Of a stretch of 64,000 nt of DNA, positions 53,932 to 63,700 are shown one piece after another; positions within the stretch are counted from its first letter, which is position 1; each line of letters opens with the position of its first letter. The notes under the pieces are model-generated. The model did not search any database, was not told the DNA's origin, and saw nothing but the letters and a program-made list of their open reading frames with translations. A program made the position numbers and the translations under genes. The DNA comes from Chthoniobacter flavus (lineage in GTDB: Bacteria; Verrucomicrobiota; Verrucomicrobiia; Chthoniobacterales; Chthoniobacteraceae). Location: contig CAMAUX010000019.1 of the NCBI GenBank assembly GCA_945861435.1, positions 1 through 64,000 on the forward strand. Reading direction: 5' to 3'.

Positions 53932-53932
53932 A
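53917..53932. promoter_or_regulatory. parS-like palindrome at the mnmG start
   Basis: TGTTCCACGTAGAACA matches the pseudomonad-type parS palindrome TGTTCCACGTGGAACA at 15 of 16 positions and ends on the first base of the mnmG start codon. ParB binds such sites to segregate newly replicated origins. Because gidA/mnmG lies near parAB and oriC in many bacteria, a genuine site here is plausible. Confidence 0.5.
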
Positions 53933-55791
53933 TGTTCACGTTTCCCAAAGAATTCGATGTCGTGGTCGTCGGGGTCGGACACGCCGGTATTGAAGCGGCC
54001 GCCGCTGCCGCCCGGCTCGGCGCTAAAGCCCTTGCTCTCACGCAGAACCTAGACTCGGTGGGGCAGATGTCCTGCAACCCGGCCATCGGGGGTCAGGCCA
54101 AGGGCCAGATTGTCCGGGAGATCGATGCGCTTGGCGGACTCATGGGGCTCAACACGGATGCCACCAGCATCCAGTTCCGCATGCTCAACGCTCGGAAGGG
54201 GCCCAGTGTGCGATCCCCGAGGGCGCAGTGCGATAAGAAGGCTTACCAATTCCGGGCCAAGGCGGAGTTGGAGCGTCAGCCGAATCTCGATATCAAGCAG
54301 GGGAACGTCACTAAGATCCTCGTGGGGCCGGATGGCGTGGAGGGAGTCGAGACGAATCTTGGTCTCCGGGTGAGAGCGCGTTCGGTGGTCATTACGACAG
54401 GGACCTTCATGCGGGGTCTCCTGCATGTAGGGCTCAATAATCAGGCGGGAGGCAGGATGGGCGATGCGTTTTCCACCCTGAGTGACAGTCTTCGGGAGCT
54501 GGGATTCGAGGTGGGAAGGTTCAAGACGGGTACTCCGTGCCGACTGCACGGACGGACCATCGATTTTTCCCGTTGTACGCCGCAATACGGGGACGAGCCT
54601 GCGCAGCCGTTCAGTTTCGTGCCGGAGCGCTTGGAGCGGCGGAAGGACGACATTTTTTCCCTGAACCATTGGGATGGAGCCTCCGGCAAGTTCCACGTGG
54701 AACAGCTCCCGTGCTGGATCACTCATACCACCACCAGCACGCACGATCATATTCGCTCCAACCTCGATAAGTCCCCTCTCTATGCGGGCCGCATCCAAGG
54801 AGTGGGCCCCCGGTACTGCCCGTCCATTGAGGACAAGGTGGTCCGGTTTGCGGAAAAGGAGTCGCATCAGGTCTTTCTTGAGCCCGAGGGCCGCCACACC
54901 GAGGAGTATTACGTCAACGGTGTTTCCACCAGCCTCCCGATGGAGGTCCAATATGACTTCATCCGCTCGATCCCGGGCCTCGAGTCGGTGGAGATCATGC
55001 GCCCCGGTTACGCGGTCGAGTACGACTACTGCCCTCCGACCCAGCTCCATCCCACCCTCGAGACGCAGCGGGTCCCGGGTTTGTATTTCGCAGGACAAAT
55101 CAACGGCACTTCCGGATACGAGGAGGCTGCTGCTCAGGGGCTCGTCGCTGGAGCCAATGCCGCGCTCAAGGTTCTCGGGCGCCCCGCCTTCACACTCACC
55201 CGGGCGGACGCCTACATTGGGGTGTTGATCGATGATCTGGTCACAAAGGGCACTCTGGAGCCCTACCGGATGTTCACTTCCCGGGCTGAGCACCGTCTGG
55301 TGCTCCGACATGACAATGCCGATGTCCGTCTGACGCCGCTTGCTCATGCGCATGGTTTGGTCGATGCCGGGCGCCACAATAAGGTGCAGGAAAAGCTCCG
55401 CCATATCGCCGCCCTCCATGCGCACGCCGCCTCCACTCCTTATGAGGGCGCGAGGTTGGCTCAGTGGCTCAAGCGCCCGGAGAACTCCCCTGCCCTGCTC
55501 CCGGCCGAACTTCGCCTCGGCTTCGCGGACGACCTTTGGGACACGATCGAAACGGAGCTCAAGTACGCCGGGTATATTCAGCGGCAGAACACCGCCATCG
55601 ACCGGCTTCACCGGACTGAAGACAACCGTCTCCCAGCGGATCTCGACTATCACCTCGTCCCGAGCCTTCGAGCAGAGACCAGGCAGAAACTGACCCAGAT
55701 CCGACCCACCACTCTCGGTCAGGCCAGCCGAATCAGCGGCATCACCCCCGCCGATATTGCGCTTCTCAGTATCTACCTCCGGCGGTTTTAA
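53932..55791 (+). CDS. mnmG: tRNA uridine 5-carboxymethylaminomethyl modification enzyme MnmG (GidA)
   Basis: This 619-residue FAD protein works with MnmE to modify U34 in the anticodon wobble position of tRNAs. FAD-binding [20 protein letters not shown] is at the N-terminus; [50 protein letters not shown] and the C-terminal [19 protein letters not shown] are MnmG hallmarks. The start is fixed by the family N-terminus. It is divergent from pdhA, and no rsmG, parA or parB is adjacent. Confidence 0.96.
54689..54704. promoter_or_regulatory. Second parS-like palindrome inside mnmG
   Basis: AGTTCCACGTGGAACA contains a perfect 14-base palindrome (GTTCCACGTGGAAC at 54690-54703) identical to the core of the parS consensus; only the first base of the 16-mer differs. 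It lies within the coding sequence for KFHVEQL of MnmG, about 770 bases from the first site. Confidence 0.5.
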
Positions 55792-56975: not shown

Positions 56976-58076
56976 CTAGGGCCGCAATTGACGCCACGCC
57001 TCCCGAACTGCCTCTGCGAGAGCGTCCCAATCCCGACCCCCAGTCTCCCAGCCGGAACTGAAGCGCAGCACGCGCCCCGCCTTCCCCTCGGGAACCCCTA
57101 GCGCCCGAACCACATGGGATGCAGCTTCCTTCCCGCTTGCGCAGGCAGAACCCGTGGAGGCAGCGATCCCGAGTCGGTCCAGCTTCACCACCCAACGCTG
57201 GCGGCAGTCGATCTCAGGCATCACCGCAGCCGCAGTATTCCAGAGCCTGTCAGCCCCTTTTCCCAGAATCTCCACGCCGGGAAGTCCTTCCAAAAGCATG
57301 TCTTCGAACCGGTCCCGCTCAGTCCCCTGCCCTCCCCGACCCTCCCTGTCGACCAGCGCCGCCATCATTGCCAGAATCCCGGCCACATTCTCCGTCCCGG
57401 CTCGCTGCTCATCCTCCTGAGGTCCCCCGACCAAAAGCGGGCGGACAGGTTTGACCGCCTTTAGGAACCCAACGCCTTGCGGGCCGCCGAACTTGTGGGC
57501 GCATCCGGACACGAATTCGATGGCCCCCAGCCCTTGGGCCGGCAACTTGCCGAACCATTGGGCGGCGTCGCAAAATACCGGGACTCCGTGGTCGTGACAC
57601 AGCGCATGGACAGCCCTCCAAGGCTGGAGGACACCGGTCTCGTTGTTGGCGGCCATGACCCCCACAAAAGCGGGCATTTTGCTCCGTAACCCCTCCGCAA
57701 GCCAGTCCAACTCAACGACACCTTGGGCGCTGACCGGAATCAGCCGATACCGCCCGGGGAAATAGCGGCGCACCGCTGCCAGCACACAGGGATGCTCGAT
57801 GGACGAAACCCAAGCCTCGCCATCACTCGAGCCCGCCAAATGGGCAATGATGGTGTTGTTGGCTTCGGTGGCGCCTGACACGAAAACGATCTCCCGGGCC
57901 TCACACCCCATCCGCAGCGCCAACGCACGCCGCGCCTCCTGAATCGCCACCTCGGCCCGGGCTCCCACGCGGTGAGGACTTGAGGGGTTTCCCGGAAACT
58001 CCACCTGCGCCCGCAGCCACGCCTCCCGGGCGGCTTCGCAAAGGGGCGAACTGGCATTGTGATCGAAGTACCGCAT
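56976..58076 (-). CDS. Cysteine desulfurase (NifS/IscS-like)
   Basis: This 366-residue PLP enzyme takes sulfur from cysteine as a persulfide for Fe-S clusters or other sulfur cofactors. YFDHNASSPLCEAAREAW is at the start, GATEANNTIIAHLA near residue 70, the PLP lysine is in SGCAHKFGGPQGVGF near residue 195, and the catalytic cysteine loop is STGSACASGKE near residue 315. Length fits NifS/IscS. It is divergent from the GcvH-like operon across 100 bases and may share its regulation. Confidence 0.93.
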   Translation of the reverse strand: MRYFDHNASSPLCEAAREAWLRAQVEFPGNPSSPHRVGARAEVAIQEARRALALRMGCEAREIVFVSGATEANNTIIAHLAGSSDGEAWVSSIEHPCVLAAVRRYFPGRYRLIPVSAQGVVELDWLAEGLRSKMPAFVGVMAANNETGVLQPWRAVHALCHDHGVPVFCDAAQWFGKLPAQGLGAIEFVSGCAHKFGGPQGVGFLKAVKPVRPLLVGGPQEDEQRAGTENVAGILAMMAALVDREGRGGQGTERDRFEDMLLEGLPGVEILGKGADRLWNTAAAVMPEIDCRQRWVVKLDRLGIAASTGSACASGKEAASHVVRALGVPEGKAGRVLRFSSGWETGGRDWDALAEAVREAWRQLRP

Positions 58077-58176
58077 GAGGAGGGACCCACCGATGCCTGA
58101 ATCCGGGCCCGGATGAAAGAAAACAGCGTGCGGGCTGGCCGGGAACCCTTCTGGCGGATAGAACGGAGATCCACCC

Positions 58177-58635
58177 GTGTCAAAAACGTCGTTTTATAAA
58201 CGCTCAACGTTCGTAACCCATCTGCCGGAGGACTGCCTCTACAGTCCCTCCCACTTCTGGCTCGCCCAAACCGTGCCCGGATTCTGGCGCATCGGGTTCA
58301 CGAAGTTTGCCACCCGCATGCTCGGCGAGATTGTGGATCATCAGTGGGAAAAGCAGCCGGGTGCGGCGGTGCGCAGCGGTGAGATCATCGGATCTATCGA
58401 GGGATTCAAGGCCATCTCGGACATCTACTGCGTGGCGGACGGCGCGTTTGTGGAGGGCAATGCCGCGTTGCGCGACGCGATCTCGCTGGTCGGCGAGAAG
58501 CCTTACGATGAAGGCTGGCTCTACCTTGTCGAGGGGCAGCCGGATTCCAAATGCACGGATCTTGCCGGATATCGCCGGCTCCTTGATGCGACAATCGACC
58601 GGATGCTGGAGAAGCAACAACACGATTCCGAATGA
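58177..58635 (+). CDS. GcvH-like lipoyl carrier protein
   Basis: This 152-residue protein belongs to the GcvH family. The lipoyl-attachment segment is IIGSIEGFKAISDIYC with lysine K78, followed by GNAALRDAISLVGEKPYDEG. The GTG start at 58177 is preceded by GGAG at the right distance. No gcvT or gcvP is in the window. GcvH homologues called LbpA carry sulfur intermediates in sHdr systems, and this one sits with Fe-S and GTPase genes, so a redox or sulfur-carrier role is more likely than glycine cleavage. Residues 15-37 with CLYSPSHFWLAQ differ from standard GcvH. Its stop overlaps the next gene as ATGA. Confidence 0.85.
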   Translation: MSKTSFYKRSTFVTHLPEDCLYSPSHFWLAQTVPGFWRIGFTKFATRMLGEIVDHQWEKQPGAAVRSGEIIGSIEGFKAISDIYCVADGAFVEGNAALRDAISLVGEKPYDEGWLYLVEGQPDSKCTDLAGYRRLLDATIDRMLEKQQHDSE

Positions 58636-59768
58636 ATACCGAGACGAGCGAACGGGCTGCGAAAGCCCGATACATCATGATTGGCGGCTTCCTTGGCGCG
58701 GGGAAGACGACCGCTGTGGCGGCGCTGGCACAGAGCCTGCACGCGCGCGGATTGCGTGTGGGTCTGATCACCAACGATCAAGGCAGCGAGTTGGTGGACA
58801 CTGCGATGCTCCGCGCACAAGGATTCTCCACGGAGGAGATCCCAGGCGGCTGCTTTTGCTGCCGGTTTAATTCGCTCGTGGATGCCGCGGCGAGACTCAC
58901 GGACACGACCTCGCCGGACGTCTTCATTGCGGAGCCCGTGGGCAGCTGCACGGATCTGGTGGCGACTGTCACGTATCCGCTGCGCAGGATCTACGGCGAC
59001 CGCTTCACCATCGCGCCGCTCTCGGTGCTCGTGGATCCCGTGCGTGCGGAGCGGGTGCTCGGGCTCAGCTCGGGCGGGAAGTTCTCCGAGAAGGTGCTAT
59101 ACATTTATCGCAAGCAGCTTGAGGAGGCCGATCTGATTGTGATCTCCAAGTGCGAAACGCTGGAGCCCGCGCGGCTCGATGCGCTGGAAACCGAGCTCCA
59201 GAGCCAGTTCCCAGCCGCTCGCGTACTGCGCGTTTCGGTCCGTGCGGGGCAGGGGACGGACGCATGGTTCCACGAAATGACCACGGCGGAGCAGGGGAGC
59301 CGTGCTGCGCTGGGGATCGACTATGAGATCTACGCGGAGGGCGAGGCGCTCCTTGGCTGGCTCAATGCGACGCTCCAGATCCGCTCCGATGCAGCCTTCG
59401 ATTCCAGCGTGCTCCTGAAGACGTTTGCCGCAGATGTCCAATCCCGGCTCGCGCCCGCCGAGATCGCGCATTTGAAGATGACGCTGAGTCCGGACGGCGG
59501 CCTCGGCGACATCGCGGTGGTGAATCTCGTGCGCAGCGACTTTGTGCCGGAGCTCTCGCTGGTCCTTGATGAGCCTGTGCCCGGAGGTCAGCTCATCGTG
59601 AACCTGCGCGCTGAGGCCGCACCCGCAGAACTGCGAGCCGCGGTGGAGGCGGCCGCCGAAGCCCTTCCCCACAAGATCCCCGGGCTGCGTGCGACGATCG
59701 AGCACCTTGAGCATTTCCGGCCCGGCAAGCCTGAGCCGACCCATCGCGACACCATCCCCGCGTTCTAG
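58632..59768 (+). CDS. COG0523/CobW-like G3E GTPase with CxCC metal motif
   Basis: This 378-residue G3E GTPase has Walker A GGFLGAGKTT (residues 18-27) and the metal-binding GGCFCC at residues 72-77, the hallmark of COG0523 metallochaperones. The usual NKxD specificity motif appears to be replaced by SKCE, which is odd. Family members insert zinc, cobalt, nickel or iron into target proteins. It is coupled to the GcvH-like gene by a four-base overlap. The likely role is metal or cofactor delivery to a product of this operon. Confidence 0.85.
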   Translation: MNTETSERAAKARYIMIGGFLGAGKTTAVAALAQSLHARGLRVGLITNDQGSELVDTAMLRAQGFSTEEIPGGCFCCRFNSLVDAAARLTDTTSPDVFIAEPVGSCTDLVATVTYPLRRIYGDRFTIAPLSVLVDPVRAERVLGLSSGGKFSEKVLYIYRKQLEEADLIVISKCETLEPARLDALETELQSQFPAARVLRVSVRAGQGTDAWFHEMTTAEQGSRAALGIDYEIYAEGEALLGWLNATLQIRSDAAFDSSVLLKTFAADVQSRLAPAEIAHLKMTLSPDGGLGDIAVVNLVRSDFVPELSLVLDEPVPGGQLIVNLRAEAAPAELRAAVEAAAEALPHKIPGLRATIEHLEHFRPGKPEPTHRDTIPAF

Positions 59769-59776
59769 AATCCGTC

Positions 59777-60172
59777 ATGAGCGAGACCGCCCCCCATCCC
59801 CGCCTGCTCTACTGCCACTGCCAATACGCGCAGGTGGTTCCGAAGGAAGTGAAGGCAGCAGTGCTAGAGCAGCTCTGCCAGTCCGGCACGGCATTCGAAG
59901 CGGTCGCTGACCTCTGCGAGATGGCGGCGCGGCGCGATCCAGCACTGAAGCGGCTTGCTGGCACTGGAGCGGTTAAGATCGCCGCCTGTTTTCCGCGTGC
60001 TGTGAAGGGACTCTTTCACCAAGCCGACGCCGACCTCGACCCGCAGTCCACGGAGGTTTTGAACATGCGCACCCTCGCGGCGGGGGAGGTCTGTGCGCGC
60101 CTGTTCGCGACGGACCTCGCCGCCAACGTCCCCACCAAAGCCAGCACGAAACCCGAGAACCCCGCCCCCTGA
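59777..60172 (+). CDS. Small cysteine-motif protein resembling the HdrA N-terminal cluster domain
   Basis: This 131-residue protein has cysteines C13 and C15 (YCHCQYA), C47 (DLCEMAAR) and C71 (KIAACFPRAVKGLF). The order CxC, then C, then AACxPR, resembles the N-terminal [4Fe-4S]-binding domain of heterodisulfide reductase subunit HdrA (CxCG, C, AACSPR). This is a pattern comparison, not a search result. It would be a single-domain Fe-S protein acting with the ferredoxin encoded next. A C-terminal tail of about 45 residues looks disordered. It starts nine bases after the GTPase stop. Confidence 0.6.
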   Translation: MSETAPHPRLLYCHCQYAQVVPKEVKAAVLEQLCQSGTAFEAVADLCEMAARRDPALKRLAGTGAVKIAACFPRAVKGLFHQADADLDPQSTEVLNMRTLAAGEVCARLFATDLAANVPTKASTKPENPAP

Positions 60173-60176
60173 ATCC

Positions 60177-61010
60177 ATGGCCCTCCGCGACTCCAGCGCC
60201 CTGCGCGTCATCGTTTATGAAGGACCCGGCAGCGATCCGCTGCCGGAGCGCCTTGCCACCATCACGGCCCTTCTTGAGCGAGGGCACGCCGTCACGCGCA
60301 CCGGTGGCGACCGGCCCGTTGCGCCCGCGGATGCAGCGCCCACGCTGGTTCTCGGGCGGTTCGCGCAAGCACCGGAGTTCTCCGGGACCACGGCCGAATG
60401 GCGTGTGCGCGACATCACCACGCTGAATTCGGCGCAGATTGCGGACGTGGTGGAGAGCACGCGTGCAGAACTCGGCGCGGCGAGGCACGGCGAATGGAAG
60501 CCGTGGTTTCCTGTCATCGATTACGATCGCTGCACCAACTGCATGCAGTGCCTGAGCTTCTGTCTGTTTGGCGTTTACGGCGTCGATGGGGAGCGGCAGA
60601 TCCAGGTGCAGAATCAGGACAACTGTAAGACCAACTGCCCGGCGTGTTCGCGCGTCTGTCCCGAGGCGGCGATCATGTTCCCGAAGTACAAAGCCGGCCC
60701 GATCAACGGCGACATCGTCAGCGACGCCGATCTTCAAAAGGAGAAGATGAAGGTGGACATCTCTGCGCTCCTCGGAGGAGACGTGTATTCGATGCTCCGT
60801 CTCCGTTCCGACAAGGCCAGGAGCCGCTTCAGCAAGGAGCGGGACTCGGACAAGGCCCTCACCGAACGGCAGAAGTGCCTCGTGAAGCTCGCCGAATCCG
60901 GGGACATCCCGCCCGAGGTTCTCATGTCCCTGCCCAGCCCCGAGGAGATCGCACGCCGCGCCGAGGAAGCTGCAGCCAAGGCCCGCGCAGCGCTGGAACC
61001 CCTCGGGTGA
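60177..61010 (+). CDS. Two-cluster 4Fe-4S ferredoxin-like protein
   Basis: This protein of about 277 residues has an N-terminal domain (about 1-110) without a recognised motif. Two [4Fe-4S] motifs follow, RCTNCMQCLSFCLFGVYGVD near residues 119-130 and NCKTNCPACSRVCPEAAIMF near 150-161. The C-terminal region (about 170-277) is helical with LTERQKCLVKLAESGDIPPE and a Lys/Ala-rich tail. The ATG at 60177 is four bases after the preceding stop. It is a likely electron carrier for the GcvH-like/HdrA-like pair. Confidence 0.85.
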   Translation: MALRDSSALRVIVYEGPGSDPLPERLATITALLERGHAVTRTGGDRPVAPADAAPTLVLGRFAQAPEFSGTTAEWRVRDITTLNSAQIADVVESTRAELGAARHGEWKPWFPVIDYDRCTNCMQCLSFCLFGVYGVDGERQIQVQNQDNCKTNCPACSRVCPEAAIMFPKYKAGPINGDIVSDADLQKEKMKVDISALLGGDVYSMLRLRSDKARSRFSKERDSDKALTERQKCLVKLAESGDIPPEVLMSLPSPEEIARRAEEAAAKARAALEPLG

Positions 61011-61038
61011 AATCCGCGCCCGTGCCTCGCGTCCACCA

Positions 61039-62448
61039 ATGAACACGTTTTTCCAAAGCCTTCGTCGCATCATTCACCCGGCTCTCCTGCTCGCGCTGGC
61101 CTTCGTGGTGGCTTCGTCTGCGTGGGCCGCCGAGCCGCTTCCACCCAAGGACCGCACGGTGATCCTCATCAGCCTCGACGGATTTCCGGCATGGCTGTGG
61201 AACGACCCCACGCTTCCCATTCCCAACCTCCGTCGTCTGGCAGGGGAGGGGGCTCAGGCGGAGGCGATGACGGTTTCCAACCCGTCGGTCACATGGATCA
61301 ACCACACCACACTGGTGACCGGCGTGAATCCTTCCAAGCACGGTGTTCTCTTCAACGGCCGCCTTGTGCGGCAGGGGCCGGATCAGCCGCCGCAGATCGA
61401 ACAGTGGGCCGACAAGGCGGACCTCGTCCGTGTCCCCACACTCTATGATCTCGCCTTCAACGCCGGCCTCAAGACCGCGCAGGTGGACTGGGTCGCGATC
61501 CTGAACTCAGGCACGATCACGGACGAGTTCCTCGAGGTGCCGCGGGTGAACGGCCGGATCGAGCGGGAGTTGATTGGGGCGGGAAAGCTCACTGCGGCGG
61601 ATCTTGCGGTCTTCAACAAGGGCAGGCAACCGGTGTGGCGCGATCAGGCTTGGACGGACGCCGCGGTGCATATTCTCAGGACGCGGAAGCCGAACCTGCT
61701 GCTGGTGCATCTGTTGAACCTCGACAGCACGAACCACACCTACGGCCCCGGCACGAGCGCGAGCCACACCGCCTACGCATACGCGGATCGTTGTGTGGCA
61801 GATCTCCTTGCGACGATCAACGAAGCCGGATTCAGGGACAAGGCCACCGTGGTCATCACCACCGACCATGGGTTTAAGAAAGTGGACAAACACATTTTCC
61901 CGAACGTCGCCCTGCGCAAGGCGGGCCTGGTGACTGTGGAGGCAGGCAAGGTGGCGCGTTGTGATGCGTATATCATGCCGCAGGGCGGTCTCGCGTTTGC
62001 CTACGTCACCGACCCTTCGCGCCGCGCCGAACTCCTGCCGCGCTTGCGCGCAGTCTGTGAAAAAATCGAGGGCGTGGACCGCGTGCTCGACGGCAGCAGG
62101 GGACCTGAGCTTGGGATGCCGACGCCGGATCAAAACCAAGGCATGGGCGACCTCATCCTCTACGCAAAAGCCGGCTACGCCTTCCAAGCTGGTGCGATCG
62201 CGGAACTCGAGACTGCGGAGGCAAAAGGCTACCTCGGTTCGCACGGCTATCCCTCCACCGACCCTGAACTGGACGGCATCTTCCTCGCGTGGGGTTATGG
62301 AATCCGACCCGGTGTGAGGATTCCGCGAGTTGCCAATCTGGATGTAGCGCCGACGCTGGCGGAACTTCTGGGCGTCACCCTTCCACCTACCGATGGGCGT
62401 GTGCTCACGGAAATTCTCGAACCCAACCTGCGCCCTGCCCGGCGCTGA
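61039..62448 (+). CDS. Secreted alkaline-phosphatase-superfamily (phosphodiesterase/nucleotide pyrophosphatase) enzyme
   Basis: This 469-residue protein has a signal peptide ending near residue 31 (SSAWAA). ILISLDGFPAWLW holds a metal-binding aspartate, NPSVTWINHTTLVTG the nucleophilic threonine, NLDSTNHTYG and TTDHGFKKVDKH further metal ligands, and LGSHGYPSTDPELDG the last histidine; these are the type I phosphodiesterase/nucleotide pyrophosphatase pattern. It would act in the periplasm or outside. It starts 28 bases after the ferredoxin gene, though its substrate need not be linked to the redox genes. Confidence 0.85.
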   Translation: MNTFFQSLRRIIHPALLLALAFVVASSAWAAEPLPPKDRTVILISLDGFPAWLWNDPTLPIPNLRRLAGEGAQAEAMTVSNPSVTWINHTTLVTGVNPSKHGVLFNGRLVRQGPDQPPQIEQWADKADLVRVPTLYDLAFNAGLKTAQVDWVAILNSGTITDEFLEVPRVNGRIERELIGAGKLTAADLAVFNKGRQPVWRDQAWTDAAVHILRTRKPNLLLVHLLNLDSTNHTYGPGTSASHTAYAYADRCVADLLATINEAGFRDKATVVITTDHGFKKVDKHIFPNVALRKAGLVTVEAGKVARCDAYIMPQGGLAFAYVTDPSRRAELLPRLRAVCEKIEGVDRVLDGSRGPELGMPTPDQNQGMGDLILYAKAGYAFQAGAIAELETAEAKGYLGSHGYPSTDPELDGIFLAWGYGIRPGVRIPRVANLDVAPTLAELLGVTLPPTDGRVLTEILEPNLRPARR

Positions 62449-62455
62449 CACCACC

Positions 62456-63700
62456 ATGTTTCCCCAACTCGCCCTCCGCATTCTGGAAAGCACGGATCCC
62501 CGTCTGCTTGGTAAGTTTCTGTGGAACTTCGGCGTGAAGGGCCTCTTCTCCGTCGAGCGATTCAAGGCGCGGATCAAGCGCGGTGAGTACTTCCCGCCGT
62601 TTCTTTACCTCTCGATCTTGAACAGCTGCAACCTCCGCTGTCAGGGCTGCTGGGTGGATGTGGAGGCGGAGCGCACGCAGATCGATCTGGAGACCCTGAA
62701 CCGTACGATCAACGAGGCGAAGGCGCACGGGAACGCGTTCTTTGGCATTCTTGGCGGCGAGCCGTTCATGCATCCGGAATTGCTCGACCTGCTGGCAGCA
62801 CACCCGGACTGCTACTTTCAGGTTTTCACCAACGGCCAGTTCATCACGCCGAAAGTGGCCAAGGCGCTGCGGTCTATTGGCAACGCCACTCCGCTCATTT
62901 CCATCGAGGGGCGAGAGATCACCAGCGACGAGCGCCGCGGCAAGAAGGAGGTCTACGCGCGCACGCTGCGCGGCCTGCGGGCGTGCCTTGAAGAGAAGAT
63001 CCTCACCGGGGTGGCGACAAGCGTCTGCCAGACGAACATCGACGAACTCTGTACGGAGGAATGGCTGCGCGAGCTCATCGATTTTGGCGCCCATTACGCC
63101 TGGTTCCACACCTACCGGCCCGTCGGCCCCAAGATGAACCCGGGCCTCGCGCTGCGCCCGGACCAGCTTGTGCGGGTGCGCCGCTTTGTGGTGGAGATGC
63201 GCGCCAAGCTCCCGATCGCATTGATCGATGCTTATTACGACGGAAAGGGACAGGCACTCTGTCCCATGTCCACCGGCATCAGCCACCACGTCAGCCCGCG
63301 CGGCGACATCGAGCCCTGTCCCATCATCCAGTTCGCCACGGAAAACATCCGCGACCCGCGTGGCATTTACGCGACCATGCGCGACAGCGCCTTCCTGCGC
63401 GATTTCCGTGAGCTCAGCGCGCACCACACCCGCGGCTGTGTGGTTCTCGAGCGGCCGGATCTGGTCAAAGGTCTCGTTCAGAAACATGGGGCGCGGGATA
63501 CCACCGCCCGTGGCACCGCGATGGCGGAGCTGGACGCTATGCAGCCCCGCTTTTCGCAGTGGCTTCCTGGCGAGGAGATCCCCGAGAAGCACTGGATGTA
63601 CCGCTGGGCAAAGAAGTATTGGTTCAACGACTTCCACGCCTACGACTCCGTCGCCCACGACGCTGAGGCGCGCGCCCGCGATCTTCAGCGCGCCCTCTGA
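62456..63700 (+). CDS. Radical SAM protein (SPASM-like)
   Basis: This protein of about 414 residues has the radical SAM motif NSCNLRCQGCWVDVEAE near residue 58, GILGGEPFMHPELLDLL and VFTNGQFITP. C-terminal cysteines lie in GDIEPCPIIQFA and HTRGCVVLERPD. It starts seven bases after the phosphatase stop. SPASM-type proteins modify peptides or activate enzymes; others make cofactors. Its target here is unknown. The N-terminal region of about 50 residues precedes the barrel. Confidence 0.85.
   Translation: MFPQLALRILESTDPRLLGKFLWNFGVKGLFSVERFKARIKRGEYFPPFLYLSILNSCNLRCQGCWVDVEAERTQIDLETLNRTINEAKAHGNAFFGILGGEPFMHPELLDLLAAHPDCYFQVFTNGQFITPKVAKALRSIGNATPLISIEGREITSDERRGKKEVYARTLRGLRACLEEKILTGVATSVCQTNIDELCTEEWLRELIDFGAHYAWFHTYRPVGPKMNPGLALRPDQLVRVRRFVVEMRAKLPIALIDAYYDGKGQALCPMSTGISHHVSPRGDIEPCPIIQFATENIRDPRGIYATMRDSAFLRDFRELSAHHTRGCVVLERPDLVKGLVQKHGARDTTARGTAMAELDAMQPRFSQWLPGEEIPEKHWMYRWAKKYWFNDFHAYDSVAHDAEARARDLQRAL

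Follow-up and report, generated by a model that had tools for sequence, protein, structure and literature searches.

An operon in the 64,000-nucleotide stretch of Verrucomicrobiota DNA analyzed here (the window; G000:C19:1-64000) belongs to a real, widely conserved and undescribed gene system. On balance it is probably one half of a two-locus, squalene-independent Fe-S/radical-SAM isoprenoid pathway that would end in a cyclic terpenoid; we infer the product and the chemistry from conserved genes and motifs. Close relatives of the window genome are named Chthoniobacter or Chthoniobacteraceae. A search of open-licence full text found no published pathway with this gene set, and an earlier sequence-only reading of this DNA likewise knew of none. 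The fusion of DUF116 with a polyprenyl synthase, taken alone, was noted in 2015; its operon partners, their co-occurrence and the link to a cyclase come from the present analysis.

On the reverse strand, a gene at 56976..58076 encodes a NifS/IscS-type cysteine desulfurase (366 aa, catalytic GSAC; PF00266, 4e-37). Transcribed divergently from it, on the forward strand, are genes encoding a GcvH-like lipoyl-carrier protein (58177..58635; 152 aa, K78 in EGFKA; PF01597, 72 bits), a COG0523 (CobW/HypB/UreG) GTPase with CFCC (58632..59768; PF02492, 83 bits), a small cysteine protein termed C4 (59777..60172; YCHC...DLC...IAACFPRA...NMR) that matched no Pfam or NCBIfam family, a 2[4Fe-4S] ferredoxin with an extra N-terminal domain (Fd; 60177..61010; Fer4 families, alignments A1 and A8), a secreted type I phosphodiesterase/nucleotide pyrophosphatase (61039..62448; PF01663, 148 bits), and a radical SAM enzyme (rSAM; 62456..63700; PF04055, alignment A7) with CNLRCQGC and SPASM-like extra cysteines C269, C288 and C328, which is the final operon gene in the window. 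All genes and gaps were rechecked. Intergenic spacing was -4 to 28 bp, the GcvH-like and COG0523 genes overlapped by 4 bp, and the starts of the GcvH-like and desulfurase genes lay 100 bp apart, so that the gene content, order, tight gaps and divergent desulfurase noted previously were all confirmed. Homologues backed the GTG start of the GcvH-like gene, and comparison with homologues placed the rSAM start at 62456, not 62393; the ferredoxin start is 60177. A promoter scan revealed no sigma-70 sites. C4 had been called a four-cysteine protein. This stands for distant relatives, which keep four (CxC, DLC, ACxPR), but not for near ones, in which five are conserved. Several loci of Chthoniobacteraceae (L036-L039, L060-L062, L064) have the tRNA-modification gene mnmG (window 53932-55791) beside the operon, whose chromosomal position is therefore conserved in the family.

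Of 97 relatives searched with the window ferredoxin, 32 have it. Named genomes, when scanned, gave 446 genome-contig loci encoding a ferredoxin relative, and plasmid records gave none. The best 80 of the 446 loci were labeled mostly Verrucomicrobiota; we read the few other labels among these 80 as misassigned metagenome bins. Within ~8 kb of the ferredoxin in these best 80 named loci, many of them on incomplete contigs, C4 was found in 73, rSAM in 54, COG0523 in 46, the GcvH-like gene in 45 and the desulfurase in 33. The co-occurrence proposed for the first genes of the operon thus holds, and the conserved neighborhood of the ferredoxin is far beyond chance. The phosphodiesterase, near the ferredoxin in only 2 of the 80 loci, is accessory. 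Flanking genes were called with a home-made caller and confirmed by six-frame profile searches. The recurrent order in relatives was divergent desulfurase, GcvH-like, COG0523, C4, ferredoxin, rSAM, DUF116-synthase, toroid protein and cyclase.

The last three genes of this order are absent from the window. By flank gene calls and Pfam matches, the first is DUF116 plus polyprenyl synthetase, the second a prenyltransferase-like protein with an alpha/alpha toroid (TOR), and the third a class II cyclase of the squalene-hopene type. They are grouped on another contig of the window genome, C18, as DUF116-polyprenyl synthase (L140:7038-8738), TOR (L140:8797-9693) and cyclase (L140:10195-11997). Between TOR and the cyclase lies an ORF that is DCC/DUF393-like by eye (L140:9752-10165; MKAHLVLYDDQCPLC).

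For a survey of the phylum, 338 genomes were drawn evenly from Verrucomicrobiota. The ferredoxin model matched 57 of them, and all 57 also had the DUF116-synthase and the cyclase, each of which was present in 59 genomes (beyond the 57, the synthase in G305 and G383, the cyclase in G231 and G339). A naive hypergeometric calculation gave 7e-63 for this co-occurrence, a value that ignores shared ancestry and is inflated by common descent. Distant families had a single tight co-directional operon, C4Fd-rSAM-DUF116PS-TOR-SHC (L176-L180, L182, L187-L189), and in 17 loci from such families C4 and the ferredoxin formed one fused ORF. Distance correlations were 0.73-0.89 among core proteins and 0.29-0.60 with the GcvH-like protein. 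As judged from these genome sequences, a core of C4-ferredoxin, a predicted radical SAM/SPASM-like enzyme, a predicted DUF116-polyprenyl diphosphate synthase, a toroid protein and a putative class II cyclase has been inherited together across the phylum. The GcvH-like protein, the COG0523 GTPase and the desulfurase are dispensable lineage additions.

Other genes recurred around some of these loci. A BamB/PQQ-type beta-propeller gene was near the core in many distant loci, directly upstream of C4-Fd or downstream of the cyclase (L177:8922-10115, L180:9145-10317, L181:9277-10455, L186:9542-10753, L184:7295-8551, L187:14401-15858, L189:14209-15696); it is possibly a partner of the core operon or else a common neighbor. 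A second type of locus with C4 and ferredoxin was seen in Verrucomicrobiota MAGs (L070:2897-10200, L075:2404-13600, L087, L092, L094), with rSAM in some. It encodes large cytochrome proteins of planctomycete type (DUF1585-1595, PSCyt) as well as a DUF1552/HXXSHH protein between C4 and the ferredoxin.

The synthase domain had both Asp-rich DDxxD motifs conserved and no FARM insertion. At position -5 from the first Asp-rich motif (AS..DDIED), 56 of 62 synthase sequences had Ala. Product chain length in prenyl synthases follows the residue at -5, a pattern drawn from known enzymes. The solved GGPP and FPP synthases that were aligned had Tyr or Phe at this position; Ala was found in 3oyr, a structure whose deposited name is trans-isoprenyl diphosphate synthase. 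The Ala, under these established rules, therefore predicts a long-chain product, which would be an all-trans polyprenyl diphosphate of at least C30. For one synthase domain (L117:10152-11945), the best NCBIfam match was the family 2 encapsulin cargo polyprenyl transferase, at 138 bits vs a cut-off of 450. The cyclase had PF13243/PF13249 domains and a profile match to squalene-hopene cyclase (6e-38). Its DADD(T/S) acid motif was present in 34/34 sequences, and the Trp and TAH histidine known from squalene-hopene cyclase were conserved. For one genus, recoding of TGA codons in the cyclase gene was considered and rejected; they are ordinary stops that the profile alignment had run past. Besides CxxxCxxC, the radical SAM enzyme had three more invariant cysteines, located in its SPASM-like C-terminus (alignment A7). 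The predicted active sites of synthase, cyclase and rSAM all have intact motifs.

A squalene/phytoene synthase family gene was not found in 46 of the 57 core genomes. Squalene from known enzymes is therefore unlikely as a general substrate; in the other 11, the window genome included, such genes are present and squalene could be the substrate. The system resembles the hopanoid pathway (HpnCDE, squalene-hopene cyclase, HpnH) in having an isoprenoid chain, a class II cyclase of the SHC family and a radical SAM enzyme. It differs from that pathway in the rarity of squalene synthase genes; moreover, rSAM and the cyclase scored far below the HpnH and hopene-cyclase cut-offs (36 bits vs 225 for rSAM; 95 bits vs the squalene-hopene cyclase equivalog cut-off of 431 for the cyclase), and the DUF116-synthase fusion, C4-Fd and the toroid protein are features of this system. 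In the sporulene/sesquarterpene pathway of Bacillus, heptaprenyl-PP is used by tetraprenyl-beta-curcumene synthase and an SHC-like cyclase. That pathway likewise cyclizes a long-chain prenyl substrate with an SHC-family enzyme independently of squalene; however, it is not known to have Fe-S or radical SAM parts, and no tetraprenyl-beta-curcumene synthase was seen here.

DUF116 (PF01976/COG1852) was predicted in a 2015 study to bind metal and to have a flavodoxin-like fold, and a role in electron transfer was proposed; the study also pointed out a protein of Pirellula staleyi (Psta_0175) in which the domain is fused to polyprenyl synthetase (PMC5898192). In our alignment DUF116 had seven invariant cysteines, and a fold search gave nothing significant, with weak B12-binding/receiver-like matches only. 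The AF2 model of C4 was alpha/beta with a pLDDT of 90 and had no significant PDB match. Because neither model had a confident PDB match, the chemistry that we assign to C4 and DUF116 is a guess. In the squalene-independent pathway that we propose, the synthase would make the long-chain diphosphate, and C4-ferredoxin would pass electrons of low potential to rSAM, to the Fe-S domain DUF116 or to both, which would alter the prenyl chain. The cyclase would then protonate the chain at DADD and so fold it into a polycyclic terpenoid, squalene synthase not being needed, and the toroid protein may hold or transfer a prenyl or terpenyl group. Among the lineage additions, the lipoyl carrier probably serves as a thiol/acyl carrier, the COG0523 GTPase as a metal inserter and the desulfurase as a source of sulfur for Fe-S clusters.

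The same genes could instead make a redox cofactor that is prenylated, either quinone-like or of another kind, with the polyprenyl chain placed on a head group built by rSAM and the Fe-S proteins and its tail modified by the toroid protein and the cyclase. The long-chain type of the synthase, the dedicated ferredoxin and radical SAM enzyme, and the electron-transfer role proposed for DUF116, together with its known synthetase fusion, are consistent with this. However, the operons showed no recurring gene for an aromatic prenyltransferase or for ring formation, and a class II cyclase that acts by protonation would fit poorly with a quinone tail; we consider a cofactor product rather unlikely, though the foremost of the alternatives. 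A bolder variant of the terpenoid reading, which we regard as unlikely, is that rSAM, C4-ferredoxin and DUF116 replace squalene synthase. Through reductive radical chemistry they would link, or else rebuild, two long prenyl chains into a squalene-like hydrocarbon, which the cyclase would convert to a new family of polycyclic membrane lipids, with the lipoylated GcvH-like protein as a thiol/electron carrier in some lineages.

K78 of the GcvH-like protein was invariant in alignment A5, and the lysine motif EGFKA was found in 53 of 56 homologues, supporting the sequence-only reading in its view of a lipoyl-type carrier in an uncharacterized conserved operon. CFCC was present in 54 of 56 homologues of the COG0523 protein, which has a G3E GTPase domain with CxCC. 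The desulfurase scored 234 bits against TIGR03402, below the equivalog cut-off, and is likely the sulfur supply for the Fe-S proteins; it also weakly matched the family 2A encapsulin cargo model. The GcvH-like carrier is not the glycine-cleavage H protein, a possibility that had been raised as one that would tell against a dedicated system: a separate gcvT-gcvH pair on contig C35 (L211) serves glycine cleavage. The two proteins share a fold family and the lipoyl-lysine motif; however, the genome's own GcvH adjoins gcvT and is 33% identical to the carrier, which has EGFKA, not ESVKA, and scored 73 bits vs the gcvH equivalog cut-off of 116. No lipoyl synthase LipA exceeded the TIGR00510 cut-off in the 96%-complete window genome (best 20 bits; L213), despite the presence of gcvH and gcvT.

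The desulfurase, GcvH-like protein and COG0523 GTPase might also be an unrelated group for metallocofactor or lipoate maintenance, lying beside the terpenoid core by chance. Their absence from most core genomes or loci fits such an origin. However, the GcvH-like gene was found in 11 of the 338 genomes and these were all core-positive (11/11), and in four families it was a neighbor of the core or of the core's rSAM, with differing orders: GcvH-like->rSAM (L171), GcvH-like->COG0523->NifS->rSAM->C4->Fd->DUF116PS->TOR (L173), and, within a compact core operon, rSAM->GcvH-like->COG0523->C4Fd->DUF116PS->TOR->SHC (L175). In L117 and L103 the order was desulfurase<-GcvH-like->COG0523->C4->Fd. Since it adjoins the core in several orders and occurs only in core-positive genomes, the GcvH-like protein is part of the system and is not needed for the core. 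Chance proximity of the three genes is improbable.

The operon had been tentatively interpreted from its sequence as a reduced module for sulfur or redox chemistry resembling sHdr. In such a module the desulfurase would supply sulfur, to be carried on the lipoylated GcvH-like protein and handled by C4 and the ferredoxin. The two systems are alike in having a GcvH-like lipoyl carrier with a conserved lipoyl lysine (here K78) next to a radical SAM enzyme and Fe-S proteins, and the tight order here, with a cysteine desulfurase, speaks for the sHdr-like reading. By eye, C4 also looks like the HdrA N-terminus (CHC...C...ACxPR...N.R). HHalign of C4 against HdrA, represented by only two near-identical sequences, gave a score of 16 in the right motif register, with ~5 of 60 shuffles scoring equal or higher. 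We do not claim an HdrA origin of C4, because this score lies within the shuffled controls and no HdrA was among the 50 PDB matches listed for the C4 model. LbpA typically has two conserved cysteines, near the N- and C-terminus, with the exception of some archaeal LbpAs (PMC6067878). In the GcvH-like family (alignment A5), none of the columns that are invariant or nearly so is a cysteine, HdrA had no match in the window genome at E 1e-60, and the window operon contains no hdrA/B/C-like genes. The partners here are isoprenoid enzymes, which an sHdr-like module leaves unexplained, and most core genomes or loci lack the GcvH-like protein and the desulfurase. Because the defining features of LbpA and Hdr were tested and not found, the sHdr-like interpretation is disfavored and we hold it very unlikely. 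Peptide or protein modification, with the SPASM-like rSAM maturing a peptide that the toroid protein prenylates, is likewise highly doubtful: the closest solved relatives of rSAM include the peptide maturase SkfB (profile match 5e-20) and TOR weakly resembles protein farnesyltransferase beta (0.006), but none of the operon ORFs of at least 50 aa stood out as a small, conserved precursor, TOR reads LDxEY in place of DxCY, the zinc motif of farnesyltransferase, no farnesyltransferase-type alpha subunit was seen, and the class II cyclase would be left unexplained.

The locus is present in a cultured strain, Chthoniobacter flavus Ellin428 (L060), whose lipids are therefore directly testable. If the squalene-independent terpenoid pathway is correct, soil and freshwater Verrucomicrobiota would make cyclic isoprenoid lipids by a route so far undescribed, which uses Fe-S/radical chemistry and does not require squalene synthase. 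This would give DUF116 a testable role, would suggest that a lipoyl carrier has a further use beyond the classical complexes, and would bear on lipid biomarkers that are read as hopanoids or sterols.
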